From NCBI GenBank assembly GCA_005884665.1, contig VBAT01000010.1, positions 538,662-602,661 of the forward strand: 64,000 bases of DNA. The letters are read 5' to 3'. This DNA comes from Bacteroidota bacterium (GTDB lineage: Bacteria; Bacteroidota; Bacteroidia; Chitinophagales; Chitinophagaceae). Below the pieces are notes generated by a model, which searched no databases, had not been told where the DNA came from, and worked only from the letters and a program-made list of their open reading frames with translations. Positions 7,522 through 40,803 of the stretch are shown here, piece after piece (positions within the stretch are counted from its first letter, which is position 1; every line of letters begins with the position of its first letter). The translations under genes were made by a program, and so were the position numbers.

Positions 7522-7628
7522 GATACTGGATGCTAGTTGCCAGATACTGGAAGATTGGCGCCACGAACAGGATTCTGGTCGATATAGGTCAGCATCCAGT
7601 AGCCAGCATCCAGAATCCCGCATCCAGT
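7522..7628. repeat. Heptad snapback array
   Basis: gatactg gatgcta gttgcca gatactg gaagatt ... gcatcca gtagcca gcatcca gaatccc gcatcca; all in one 7-nt register. Confidence 0.85.
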
Positions 7629-22373: not shown

Positions 22374-23096
22374 TTGTTTATGAAGAAATTCCTATTGTCG
22401 TTATTGTTAGCTGCTTCAGTTTATAACCTGTTGGCTCAGAAAACAATCAATGATCCGAATGCAGAAAAAAGGAACGTGGGCAGTTTTCACGGCGTTAACG
22501 TGGGAACAGGTATCAAGCTAATGCTGAGCGAAGGCGCAACCGAAGATGTGGTTGTGAGTGCTGACAAAACAGAATACCGGGACAAGATCATAACCAGGGT
22601 TGAAAATGGCATACTTAAGATCTACTACGACAATAAAATAGGTGCAATTAATAGCCGGAAGGAAAAAAAGGAATTAAAAGCCTATGTTTCTTATAAAAAT
22701 ATTGATCGCCTGGATGCAAACACAGGAGCCGAAGTGCAGATCGAAGGCACGTTGAAATCAGCCTCGTTAAAAATGTCAGTGAATACCGGGGCGATAGTAA
22801 AAGGAGATATAAATGTGGATGATCTTGAAGTGGATCAGAATACCGGGGCTATCGTGACATTTTCAGGCGATGCAGGCAAGTTAGATGTGCATGGCGATAC
22901 CGGTGCGATGTTCAAAGGCACCGACCTGAAGACAAACAACTGCAACGTATCGGCCAGTACAGGTGCAGGCGTGTATATCACCGTTCAGAAAGAATTGTAT
23001 GTAAAAGCCAATACAGGCGGTTTTGTAAGATATAAAGGAGAGGCTGGTATAAGAGATATTAAAACAAATACCGGCGGGTCAGTCACCAGGTTATAA
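22374..23096 (+). CDS. DUF2807 (GIN-type) beta-helix secreted protein, paralog 1 (NTGA repeats)
   Basis: NVGSFHGVNVGTGIKLMLSEG...; repeated NTGA motif every ~20 aa. Confidence 0.85.
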   Translation: MFMKKFLLSLLLAASVYNLLAQKTINDPNAEKRNVGSFHGVNVGTGIKLMLSEGATEDVVVSADKTEYRDKIITRVENGILKIYYDNKIGAINSRKEKKELKAYVSYKNIDRLDANTGAEVQIEGTLKSASLKMSVNTGAIVKGDINVDDLEVDQNTGAIVTFSGDAGKLDVHGDTGAMFKGTDLKTNNCNVSASTGAGVYITVQKELYVKANTGGFVRYKGEAGIRDIKTNTGGSVTRL

Positions 23097-23149
23097 CAAG
23101 ATTCAACACCTGCCTTTGTGGCACGCAGGCAGGTTCAACCTTTAAATTA

Positions 23150-23866
23150 ATGGTTATGAAAAAATTCATCTTCTTATTATCCCTTGCGACCATGGTGATG
23201 ACAGTAGCAGCTCAAAAAGTGGTCAAAGATGCCAATGTCGAAAAAAGAAATGTAAGTGGTTATCATGCGATATCCATTTCCGGAGGCATTGATCTTTATT
23301 TATCGCAGGGCAATGAATCGGTGGCTGTAAGTGCATCCGAAATAAAATACCGCGATAGAATTAAAACAGAAGTAAAGAATGGGGTGCTGACCATATGGTT
23401 TGACCATAACGGCGTGAATTGGGGCCATGATGACCGTAGGATGAAAGCCTATGTTTCCTTTAAAGAGCTGGACAAACTGACTGCCAGCGGCGGTTCGGAT
23501 ATAGATGTGGATGGAGCTATTAAAGTGAATAGGCTGAGCGTTGATATATCGGGTGGTTCTGACTTTGAAGGAAAAGTGGAGATCAGTGAATTGAAAGTAG
23601 AAGCCAGTGGCGGTAGCGATACAAAGATATCAGGTGCGGTGAAGAGCCTGGATATTGTTGCAAGTGGCGGCAGTGATTTTAAAGGATATGATTTGACCGC
23701 CGAGGTATGCAAGCTGGATGCCAGCGGAGGTAGCGATGTTTATATTACGGTCAGTAAGGAATTGAGTGCTGAAGCAAGCGGGGGCAGCGACGTATTTTAT
23801 AAAGGTAATGGAACAGTCCGCGATCTGAAATCAAGTGGTTCTTCAAGCATTAAGAAAACAAGTTGA
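23150..23866 (+). CDS. DUF2807 (GIN-type) protein, paralog 2 (SGGSD repeats)
   Basis: NVSGYHAISISGGIDLYLSQG...; repeated SGGSD motif. Confidence 0.85.
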   Translation: MVMKKFIFLLSLATMVMTVAAQKVVKDANVEKRNVSGYHAISISGGIDLYLSQGNESVAVSASEIKYRDRIKTEVKNGVLTIWFDHNGVNWGHDDRRMKAYVSFKELDKLTASGGSDIDVDGAIKVNRLSVDISGGSDFEGKVEISELKVEASGGSDTKISGAVKSLDIVASGGSDFKGYDLTAEVCKLDASGGSDVYITVSKELSAEASGGSDVFYKGNGTVRDLKSSGSSSIKKTS

Positions 23867-24600
23867 AACGGTTAAAAAATTTATACATGAAAAAGATAAT
23901 TGTAATAGTAGCCGCTGTGTTATTCGTCTCCAGCATGAGAGCACAGCAAACAATGAGTGACCCGAATGTACAGGTAAGAGAAGCAAAGGATTTCCATGCC
24001 ATACATGTCGGTAGTGCATTTGATGTCTATCTCTCCCAGGGAACTGAGGAGAAAGTCGCGGTCAGTGCGGCCAGTGAAAAGGATCTTGCCTATATAACTG
24101 TTGAAGTAAGGAATGGCGTATTGGAAGTAAGTTGGGATAAGAAAGGCAAATGGACCAGGGGCAATAAAAAGCTGAAAGCCTGGATCTCGTTTAAAAAGAT
24201 TGATGAACTCATTGCCGGCGGTGCTTGCGATGTGGATATTGCCGGCACATTAAAAGCGGATGATCTGAAAATAGAGCTCTCAGGCGCTAGCGATCTCTCT
24301 GGCAAGATTGAAGTAATTAAAAAACTGACGATGGATCTGAGTGGAGCATCCGATGCCAAATTGAGCGGGCTGGCTACAGAAATGAAGATCGATGCCAGTG
24401 GCGCCAGTTCTTTTAAAGGATTTGATTTTACAGTTGATTACTGTAATGCCGAAGCTTCCGGGGCCAGTGACATCAAGATCACGGTGAACAAGGAGCTTTC
24501 CGCCAATGCCAGCGGCGCCAGTGATGTCAATTATAAAGGAGGAGGCGTAATTCGAGATATCAAGACCAGCGGGGCGAGCAGTGTATCCCGTTCTTCATAA
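23863..24600 (+). CDS. DUF2807 (GIN-type) protein, paralog 3 (SGASD repeats)
   Basis: EAKDFHAIHVGSAFDVYLSQG...; repeated SGASD motif; mature start probably 23887. Confidence 0.85.
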   Translation: MKRLKNLYMKKIIVIVAAVLFVSSMRAQQTMSDPNVQVREAKDFHAIHVGSAFDVYLSQGTEEKVAVSAASEKDLAYITVEVRNGVLEVSWDKKGKWTRGNKKLKAWISFKKIDELIAGGACDVDIAGTLKADDLKIELSGASDLSGKIEVIKKLTMDLSGASDAKLSGLATEMKIDASGASSFKGFDFTVDYCNAEASGASDIKITVNKELSANASGASDVNYKGGGVIRDIKTSGASSVSRSS

Positions 24601-24627
24601 GTCATATACATAGGGTTAATATAGAAC

Positions 24628-24664
24628 AGCAAAAAGCTCCTTCGGTTTGGGAGCTTTTTTCATT
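24628..24664 (+). terminator. Rho-independent terminator after the DUF2807 genes
   Basis: AAAAAGCTCCttcggttTGGGAGCTTTTTTCATTTT. Confidence 0.8.
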
Positions 24665-24789
24665 TTAGCTGCCAATTAAGTAGCAATTTTTGCTGTGATC
24701 GCCAGATAAAATATGTGAAATAAAACTACTGCATCTTGAATATATAGTTTGGCAGGTAAGCGTCTTAGCTATATATTTGCAACCCACAT

Positions 24790-24861
24790 CGCGAAGTAGA
24801 GCAGCGGTAGCTCGACGGGCTCATAACCCGTAGGTCGGGAGTTCGATCCTCCCCTTCGCAA
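24790..24861 (+). tRNA. tRNA-fMet (CAT), initiator
   Basis: 72-nt cloverleaf CGCGAAG..CTCATAA..CTTCGCA-A; C1 x A72 mismatch and three G-C pairs next to the anticodon loop. Confidence 0.93.
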
Positions 24862-25345
24862 CAAGAAAAACTCGTCAAACCGACGAGTTTTTTATTTTAT
24901 CAGCGGGCTCATATCCGCCGGTTGGCGGATGGGAGTTCCCTGCCTGCGTGACGCAGTCAGGCAGGGATCCTCCCCTTCGCAACAAGAAAAACTCGTCAAA
25001 CCGACGAGTTTTTTATTTTGACAGCGGGTTCATATCCGCCGGTTGGCGGATGGGAGTTCCCAGCCTGCGTGACGCAGTCAGGCAGGGATCCTCCCCTTCG
25101 CAACAAGAAAAACTCGTCAAACCGACGAGTTTTTTATTTTATCAACGGGTTCATATCCGTCGGTTGGCGGACGGGAGTTCCCCGCCTGCGTGACGCAGTC
25201 AGGCAGGGATCCTCCCCTTCGCAACAAGAAAAACTCGTCAAACCGACGAGTTTTTTATTTTATCAACGGGTTCATATCCGTCGGTTGGCGGACGGGAGTT
25301 CCCTGCCTGCGTGATGCAGTCAGGCAGGGATCCTCCCGTTCGCAA
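24862..25345 (+). repeat. Four 121-bp tandem repeats derived from the tRNA-fMet 3' part plus its terminator
   Basis: gcaacaag at 24858, 24979, 25100 and 25221 and gcaataag at 25342 (spacing exactly 121); each unit has aaaaactcgtcaaaccgacgagtttttt, cgggYtcatatccg..., and ggatcctccccttcgca. Confidence 0.95.
24865..24900 (+). terminator. Intrinsic terminator after tRNA, copied in the tandem units
   Basis: aaaaACTCGTCaaacCGACGAGTttttTatttt. Confidence 0.85.
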
Positions 25346-25538
25346 TAAGAAAACTTGTCAACCAGGCAGGTTTTTTTCATTTTGATAGAGGGAAGTAACA
25401 CCTTGAAAATAAAACCTATGACGGCCTGATCAGAGCCCCAGTCTTATTTTCAGCCGGTTCTATAGCGTCCAGTCCGCGTCATCAGCTATTTAGCTTCGGA
25501 CAATCTCGCTCACCTGTCTTACCTTTGCGACCCGCAAA

Positions 25539-26405
25539 ATGAAAGCAGGCTTTGTCAACATATTTGGAAGACCTAACGCAGGTAAAAGCACGTTACTCAA
25601 CGCATTGATGGGAGAAAAGATGGCGATCGTGTCACCCAAGGTGCAAACGACACGTCACCGGATCAAAGCAATCCTGACTGAAAAGGACTACCAGGTTGTT
25701 TTTTCAGATACACCCGGGATCATCGAACCCAAATACCGGCTTCACGAAAAAATGATGGACGCCGTAAAAAGCGCGTTGGAAGATGCTGACGTAGCGCTGT
25801 TGATCGTGGATGTAAATGAGAACTGGAGTGAAGCTGATGAAATCTTCGGAGCACTAAAGTTGAAGGTTCCGGCGATTGTTGTCATTAATAAGATCGACAG
25901 GGCCGGCCAGGAAAAAATAAAAGAGGCAGTTGCTTTTTTTGAAAGCAAATCCTATTGCAAAAAATTGCTCACCATTTCAGCAAGCAGCGGCATCAACATC
26001 AGGCAATTCCTGAAACCGATACTTGAGCTATTGCCCGAAGCCGAGCCATTTTATCCGGGGGACGATATCAGCGACTTGCCCACTAAGTTTTTTGTAGGTG
26101 AACTTGTACGCGAAAAGATCTATGAATTGCTTTCCGATGAGCTTCCTTATCAAACCGCGGTGCTGGTACGGGAGTTCAAGGAAAAATCAACCCTGGTGAA
26201 GATTGTTGCCGACATCATTGTGCAGCGTGAAACGCAAAAGGCCATATTGCTGGGAGAGAAAGGCAGTATGATAAAGAAGATTGGCACCGAGGCGCGAAAA
26301 GAGATTGAAAAATTTCTGCAGCAAAAAGTTTTCCTGGAGCTGTTTGTAAAAGTCAAACCGAAGTGGAGGGAGAATGAGATGCAGTTGAAGGAGTATGGAT
26401 ACTAG
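25539..26405 (+). CDS. era: GTPase Era
   Basis: MKAGFVNIFGRPNAGKSTLLNALMGEKMAIVSPKVQTTRHRIKAILTEKDYQVVFSDTPG; C-terminal KH domain. Confidence 0.96.
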   Translation: MKAGFVNIFGRPNAGKSTLLNALMGEKMAIVSPKVQTTRHRIKAILTEKDYQVVFSDTPGIIEPKYRLHEKMMDAVKSALEDADVALLIVDVNENWSEADEIFGALKLKVPAIVVINKIDRAGQEKIKEAVAFFESKSYCKKLLTISASSGINIRQFLKPILELLPEAEPFYPGDDISDLPTKFFVGELVREKIYELLSDELPYQTAVLVREFKEKSTLVKIVADIIVQRETQKAILLGEKGSMIKKIGTEARKEIEKFLQQKVFLELFVKVKPKWRENEMQLKEYGY

Positions 26406-26535: not shown

Positions 26536-26697
26536 TAGGTACTGCCTACGTTCGCAACTGGATTTGCCCCAGAGGGGCATAATATCGTTAGCTCAAAATG
26601 GATGAATTTCCAGGCGCTCCGTAGGTGCGCAATATCGGTGAGCAGAATGAATTATAGCCTGCCTACCGGCAGGGCAGGCGAAGCAAAAAAATTAAAA

Positions 26698-40622: not shown

Positions 40623-40699
40623 GATGCTGGATGCTAGATGCTGGAAGCATGGTCGATAGCAGCTGCATCCAGTACCCAGCAACCAATATCCAGCATCCA
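40623..40699. repeat. Heptad snapback array
   Basis: gatgctg gatgcta gatgctg gaagcat ggtcgat agcagct gcatcca gtaccca gcaacca atatcca gcatcca, single register. Confidence 0.88.
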
Positions 40700-40803
40700 A
40701 CCGCTTCGCCCCACTGCACCGGTGATCCAATATCTTCCCTTAGCCAAAACATAGCATCCAAGGATGATAATTTTCTGTAATTTTTCAGTCACAAAACCGA
40801 TTT

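Follow-up and report, generated by a model that had tools for sequence, protein, structure and literature searches.

The window analysed here, a stretch of 64,000 nucleotides from a genome of the Chitinophagaceae, contains a single tRNA found by ARAGORN, a Met(CAT) tRNA that is recognised as the initiator by its 5' C and its CTCATAA loop (Table 1). Behind it stands a tandem array whose period is exactly 121 bp (TRF: 4.3 copies, 95% matches, score 922). A previous sequence-only reading had described four exact 121-bp units at this place, each composed of a tRNA 3' portion and a terminator hairpin, with five terminators in a row. TRF and the unit alignment bear this out: the units stand in register from 24904 to 25387, and five hairpins can be read, of which the terminator scan itself lists four. 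The end lies nearer 25387 than the 25345 given before. Units 1-3 are 94-98% identical to each other. The copy number of four was read from a draft assembly (672-kb contig), and since substitutions distinguish the units, a pure assembly duplication or artefact is an unlikely source of the array.

Table 1. Features of the tRNA-fMet locus and its array (positions in the window).
Feature	Position	Strand	Basis and remarks
Promoter-like site TTGGCA-17-TATATT, upstream of tRNA-fMet	24749-24777	+	consensus scan only
Intact initiator tRNA-Met(CAT)	24790-24862	+	ARAGORN; RF00005, 64.2 bits
Terminator A (again after units 1-3)	24865-24893	+	terminator scan, unit alignment
Unit 1: pseudo-tRNA 3' half and terminator A	24904-25024	+	TRF, unit alignment
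Unit 2	25025-25145	+	TRF, unit alignment
Unit 3	25146-25266	+	TRF, unit alignment
Unit 4: pseudo-tRNA 3' half and terminator B	25267-25387	+	unit alignment; empty-site comparison
Terminator B, in unit 4	25347-25377	+	terminator scan
Palindrome P1 in unit 1; also 25034-25051, 25155-25172, 25276-25293	24913-24930	+	fMet-associated GIY-YIG elements in other species have it at this position
Palindrome P2 in unit 1; also 25060-25086, 25181-25207, 25302-25328	24939-24965	+	inserted at T-loop GTTC|GATCC
Copy of the tRNA-fMet 3' end in unit 1, every 121 bp	24966-24983	+	tail-copy search
era GTPase ORF, flanking gene	25539-26405	+	marks the orthologous locus in relatives

Promoters of Bacteroidota often deviate from a consensus such as the one used for the promoter-like site. 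The terminator directly behind the tRNA (terminator A) recurs at the end of units 1-3; unit 4 ends with a deviating hairpin (terminator B, 16-17 of 37 positions identical to terminator A), which is probably the original terminator of the locus. The whole locus reads tRNA-(terminator A-pseudo-tRNA)x4-terminator B. Three tandem paralogous secreted proteins of about 240 aa are encoded just upstream of tRNA-fMet (22374-24600), and similar coding sequence seems to be present near the fMet gene of some relatives (e.g., L012, L023). A GC-rich palindrome (cctgccta..ggcagggcagg, 26656-26680) lies close to the 5' end of a Der-like GTPase ORF, where it is translated as SLPTGRAG; it is similar to dispersed palindromes that have been inserted into reading frames. 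At 1692-1752, 7590-7628 and 40665-40700 there are short arrays that repeat every 14 bp (GATGCCAGATACTG, CAGCATCCAGTAGC, GCATCCAATACCCA).

The units are more than simple tRNA tails. A tRNA 3' half is present in each of them, but with two inserted palindromes, P1 and P2, which had been overlooked. Aligned to tRNA-fMet, each unit sets in at the anticodon stem, with its 5' strand, and the CAT anticodon is preserved (CGGGCTCAT in unit 1, CGGGTTCAT in units 2-4). P1 (ATCCGCCGGTTGGCGGAT) substitutes for the 3' strand of the anticodon arm, the unit then runs on with GGGAGTTC, P2 (CCTGCCTGCGTGACGCAGTCAGGCAGG) splits the T-loop between GTTC and GATCC, and the pseudo-tRNA closes with the exact 3' end of tRNA-fMet (GATCCTCCCCTTCGCAAC), with two substitutions in unit 4.

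Replication slippage might account for such an array: a tRNA 3' half and its terminator would have been duplicated, the dispersed palindromes P1 and P2 would have entered it by chance and amplification of the 121-bp unit would have followed, all without a nuclease element. Slippage and unequal crossing-over typically leave tandem structures of graded divergence, and P1-like palindromes do exist elsewhere in the genome (e.g., at C53:880 and C110:95212). We nevertheless regard this scenario as unlikely. Outside of tRNA copies both palindromes are very rare in this genome: exact P1-type palindromes have only two further sites, and P2 (up to three mismatches, whole genome) is confined to the fMet array and to a second array after a tRNA-Met on contig C51, where it interrupts the T-loop at the same point. 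P1, moreover, lies exactly where it lies in fMet elements with a GIY-YIG gene in other species and in the orthologous locus of a congener. Finally, similar tails stand behind 13 of the 41 real tRNA genes (within 700 bp downstream), and upstream of the 41 genes none were found except matches among the copies of one array.

Several of these tails accompany nuclease genes. Ten GIY-YIG matches were found in the genome, of which five are small ORFs that come immediately after a tRNA gene (Ala-GGC, Arg-TCT, Leu-TAA, Glu-TTC and Ser-GCT). Behind each of the five ORFs follows a second, altered and mostly palindrome-marked partial copy of the same tRNA; in the Ala, Arg and Leu elements the stop codon of the ORF lies inside the D-arm of this copy, and a second terminator is present. 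Tail arrays lacking an ORF follow Lys-CTT, Lys-TTT, Met, Val-TAC, Cys and fMet. Three ARAGORN calls of "tRNA-Gly(ACC)" on one contig (L062, G000:C15:93466-93879) are Val-TAC pseudo-tRNAs with a replaced anticodon arm, and automatic annotation will list such pseudo-tRNAs as false tRNAs; a "tRNA-SeC" at L285 is a similar case. The arrays behind the two tRNA-Lys genes (CTT, L058; TTT, L060) are of a different kind, with units of about 170 bp and copies of the tRNA 3' end in both direct and inverted orientation, and carry no palindrome in the anticodon arm.

The presence of ORF-less arrays at other tRNAs and in other genomes implies that the array of the window is one of a recurring class. In particular, 83 bp are repeated 3.3 times after Val and 137 bp 5.4 times with a Ser-like tail in one genome (G096), 107 bp 2.2 times after Thr in a second (G056), and 63 bp 2.4 times after Met in a third (G066). 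Whole elements including the ORF are likewise found in tandem, among others at tRNA-Ala (G028, L155), Met (G034, L152) and Arg (G014, L165). Pseudo-tRNAs of Val, Ser, Thr, Glu and Arg in other places carry a palindrome at the position of P2; P2 itself was not seen among the fMet elements examined in other species. A phylum-wide search for the exact P1 signature, which is too strict even for the units of the window, matched only 2 of 148 genomes, so that the fMet form is sporadic.

The initiator tRNA locus was compared among relatives, as the sequence-only reading had proposed. In a genome of the same genus (G006), the fMet gene again lies upstream of era, and behind it come a terminator, an ORF for an 82-aa GIY-YIG protein, a pseudo-tRNA with P1 (GGCTCATATCCGCCGGATGGCGGACGGGAG) at a position identical to that in the window units, and a second terminator. 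This element measures about 300 bp, with the pseudo-tRNA near its end. In another congener (G002) the site is empty and the same flanks are joined without an insert; the sequence behind the pseudo-tRNA of the occupied site corresponds to the sequence behind the tRNA of the empty one. Occupied and empty alleles at one site are expected of a free-standing GIY-YIG homing endonuclease element. Together with tail copies at 5 of the 28 fMet loci with room for them within a family, they indicate that the trait is a sporadic insertion. Between 24863 and 25538 of the window no GIY-YIG ORF was found, so that the array can be at most a non-autonomous derivative of a GIY-YIG element, whose descent we trace through the shared P1-bearing pseudo-tRNA and the shared locus.

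Small GIY-YIG genes of this kind accompany tRNAs of many isotypes throughout Bacteroidota. An unseeded survey of 61 relatives, covering the surroundings of their small GIY-YIG ORFs, yielded 111 distinct ORFs, 60 of which have a tRNA on the same strand within 300 bp (about 0.4% expected). Where the tRNA is upstream, a tail copy follows the ORF in 36 of 48 cases. Mirrored elements, which begin with the palindrome-marked pseudo-tRNA and end with the intact tRNA, are also found (L172, L127, L124, L157), and in these the nuclease ORF often reads into a tRNA-like 5' part. The proteins contain a GIY-YIG domain (PF01541, E 1e-13 to 1e-17 in the ORF-bearing relatives) and little beyond it, with no obvious DNA-binding domain, and the catalytic Y, YxG, R, H and E are conserved at 96-100% (110 rows). 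They resemble UPF0213 GIY-YIG proteins (PDB 1ywl, 1zg2), SLX1 and the catalytic domain of I-TevI in the sequence of the nuclease domain. However, none of the 14 ordinary UPF0213-type ORFs (NPxW motif) of the surveyed genomes adjoins a tRNA. The protein of the occupied fMet site in G006 matched genomes of Chitinophagaceae, Sphingobacteriaceae, Cyclobacteriaceae, Marinifilaceae, Saprospiraceae and others, as well as Cloacimonadota. Niastella caeni and Longitalea luteola are among the carriers of fMet-type elements. Of the 76 loci away from contig ends in this second survey, 58 are tRNA-linked, 49 of these to Met(CAT), a proportion biased toward Met by the single fMet-type protein used as seed. 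A phage or viral origin of the nucleases was rejected, as no relatives were present in the phage collection and none were confirmed in IMG/VR.

Because of the bias toward Met, the nuclease tree was restricted to the unseeded set (60 sequences). It comprises few columns and many open forks, and we use its clustering and not its branching order. On this tree the tRNA isotype requires 26 changes compared to 46 under shuffling (none of 500 shuffles as low), whereas the host genome requires 46 compared to 48 (61 of 500, not significant). The nuclease lineages follow the isotype of their target tRNA across hosts, and not the host genome. The pseudo-tRNAs resemble the tRNA next to them: in 17 of 23 fMet elements their 3' end does not differ from that of the local tRNA, and tail identity averages 0.95 to the local tRNA versus 0.63 to tRNAs of other species. 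This indicates that the copies arise locally or are homogenised by recombination.

A palindrome with a stem of at least 6 occurs in the examined stretch of 84% of 75 pseudo-tRNAs, compared to 8.5% of base shuffles and 13% of the parent tRNAs. In Met-type elements the inner two pairs of P1 covary (CC..GG, TT..AA, CT..AG, TC..GA; 10 double-change cells, reached in none of 500 shuffles), a pattern compatible with an RNA hairpin as well as with a dyad-symmetric DNA site. The 3' arm of P1 was also considered, from the fold, as a mimic of the missing acceptor strand; this was dropped, since it fails for elongator-type variants.

The arrays may alternatively be maintained for a functional RNA: transcripts that start at the tRNA promoter would run through the units and be processed into structured RNAs of about 120 nt, similar to RtT, a sponge, a decoy or a processing signal. 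The units fold better than shuffled sequences (z -3.6 to -7.3), the arms of P1 covary between species, and the Val pseudo-tRNAs still fold as tRNAs. However, the palindromes alone suffice to cause the excess in folding, and a site acting at the DNA level predicts their conservation equally well. Every unit is preceded by a terminator, and the arrays are polymorphic within a family, as the fMet loci demonstrate. We therefore consider a functional RNA quite improbable, even though RtT of E. coli, which has a similar layout, is an annotated RNA.

The parallel to the rtT repeats of E. coli tyrT, drawn in the sequence-only reading, holds for the layout but does not extend to membership in the RNA family. 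Behind tyrV of MG1655, RtT comprises 3.1 units of 178 bp, each beginning with the 3' end of tRNA-Tyr. A unit also contains AAGGTTCGA, behind it an insertion of about 65 nt and then the tail, so that the T-loop appears to be split as in the window. In this region (NC_000913, 1285500-1288000, L335) the units look like 3' halves of tRNA-Tyr with the structured insertion in the T-loop, in the place of P2; an RtT copy is present between tyrT and tyrV as well. The two systems share tandem units behind a tRNA gene, each with a tRNA 3' end. They differ in unit length, in the lack of P1 and P2 in RtT and in the lack of a GIY-YIG relative at the E. coli locus. The RtT covariance model (RF00391) gave no match in 24000-26000 of the window at E<=1, nor in L001 at the gathering threshold, and four matches in the E. 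coli control. We interpret the resemblance as shared anatomy, and judging from the sequences the split T-loop is no evidence of common descent. An Rfam search of the locus found only the tRNA; a hit to the snoRNA ceN81 (22.8 bits against a cut-off of 50) was discarded as a chance match.

The 3' ends of tRNA genes are classic att sites, and a duplicated tail looks like an attL/attR pair. The array could in principle be the scar of classical integrative elements that were inserted at the tRNA 3' end by a tyrosine recombinase and lost later. This is highly improbable: the ORF-bearing versions hold only the GIY-YIG gene within about 300 bp, and the repeat includes sequence of the D-arm or anticodon arm and internal palindromes, well beyond a 3'-end core. 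No integrase gene was found between the tail copies; the array of the window has no room for an ORF, and the ORF-bearing forms examined contain only the GIY-YIG gene.

An interpretation as a "recombination scar" had been proposed before and comes close, but the comparative data point to the relic of a tRNA-associated GIY-YIG element. The array of the window is in our view probably the ORF-less, tandemly amplified remnant of an isotype-specific, tRNA-associated element resembling homing endonucleases. In the intact element the host tRNA is followed by terminator A, an ORF of about 80-95 aa for the GIY-YIG protein, a pseudo-tRNA and terminator B, the pseudo-tRNA being a copy of the same tRNA with a short palindrome in the anticodon arm, the T-loop or both. 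This layout, the palindromes, the adjacency to tRNAs, the isotype fidelity, the local identity of the tails, the occupied and empty sites and the tandem forms with and without ORF are seen in the sequences; the course of events set out next is a proposal. The nuclease would cut the gene of its single tRNA isotype in genomes or alleles without the element, and repair from the element-bearing copy would install the element and keep one intact tRNA. The palindrome-bearing copy would no longer be a target, its altered arm protecting it. Nuclease cuts may then multiply, or unequal recombination with the tRNA tails as repeats may do so, the segment of terminator A, ORF (if present) and pseudo-tRNA. 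In the fMet block of this genome, the ORF may have been lost, P2 gained and four copies reached, possibly in this order. The confinement of terminator B to unit 4 is predicted by the order tRNA-(terminator A-pseudo-tRNA)n-terminator B, and the terminator pattern of the window is the expected leftover of a tandem duplication of [terminator A-(ORF)-pseudo-tRNA] with loss of the ORF. The model does not account for the escape of the intact tRNA beside the nuclease gene from cutting. Further points against it are the lack of a nuclease ORF in the array of the window, the proteins' lack of an obvious DNA-binding domain, the absence of P2 from the fMet elements examined in other species and the sporadic occurrence of the fMet form.

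Comparable elements are known from other systems. Fungal mitochondrial mORF elements (Allomyces atp6; Glomus atp6, atp9, cox2 and nad3) consist of a homing-endonuclease ORF (GIY-YIG in atp9) inserted at a gene together with a duplicated 3' part of it; the host gene stays functional and its displaced end lies downstream (PMC3630166). The combination of a nuclease ORF, a duplicated 3' part and a functional host gene is shared. However, the mORFs target protein genes and import a foreign C-terminus, whereas here the target is a bacterial tRNA gene, the tail is that of the local tRNA and the pseudo copy is marked by a palindrome. SegB of phages T4 and T6 is a free-standing GIY-YIG endonuclease beside tRNA genes and a shown driver of tandem segmental amplification by recombination (PMC13096335). 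It is similar to the present nucleases in both its free-standing form and its location, but is borne by phages, and a palindrome-marked pseudo-tRNA is not reported for it. In comparison with intron-encoded systems, there is no intron here and the anticodon arm is altered in the pseudo copy only.

The open-access literature searched contained no description of tRNA-linked GIY-YIG elements in Bacteroidota, only these analogues, and the elements, small in size and widespread in the phylum, appear to be undescribed. It is possible, and we suggest this only tentatively from the sequence comparisons, that they represent a phylum-wide, undescribed class of mobile elements, in which single isotype-faithful GIY-YIG nucleases home into tRNA genes, keep one tRNA intact and mark the other copy by replacing its anticodon arm with a co-varying palindrome, and which also spawn ORF-less, MITE-like tandem arrays of pseudo-tRNAs, possibly mobilised in trans. 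If so, many tRNA genes of Bacteroidota would house a minimal mobile element, a bacterial counterpart of the fungal mORFs and phage SegB, which would account for clusters of small GIY-YIG proteins and for odd pseudo-tRNAs annotated as tRNA-Gly(ACC) or tRNA-SeC. It would likewise provide a route to the tandem amplification of tRNA loci and a lead on the origin of RtT-like arrays. The isotype fidelity of the nucleases puts target recognition by a domain of about 80 aa within direct experimental reach.
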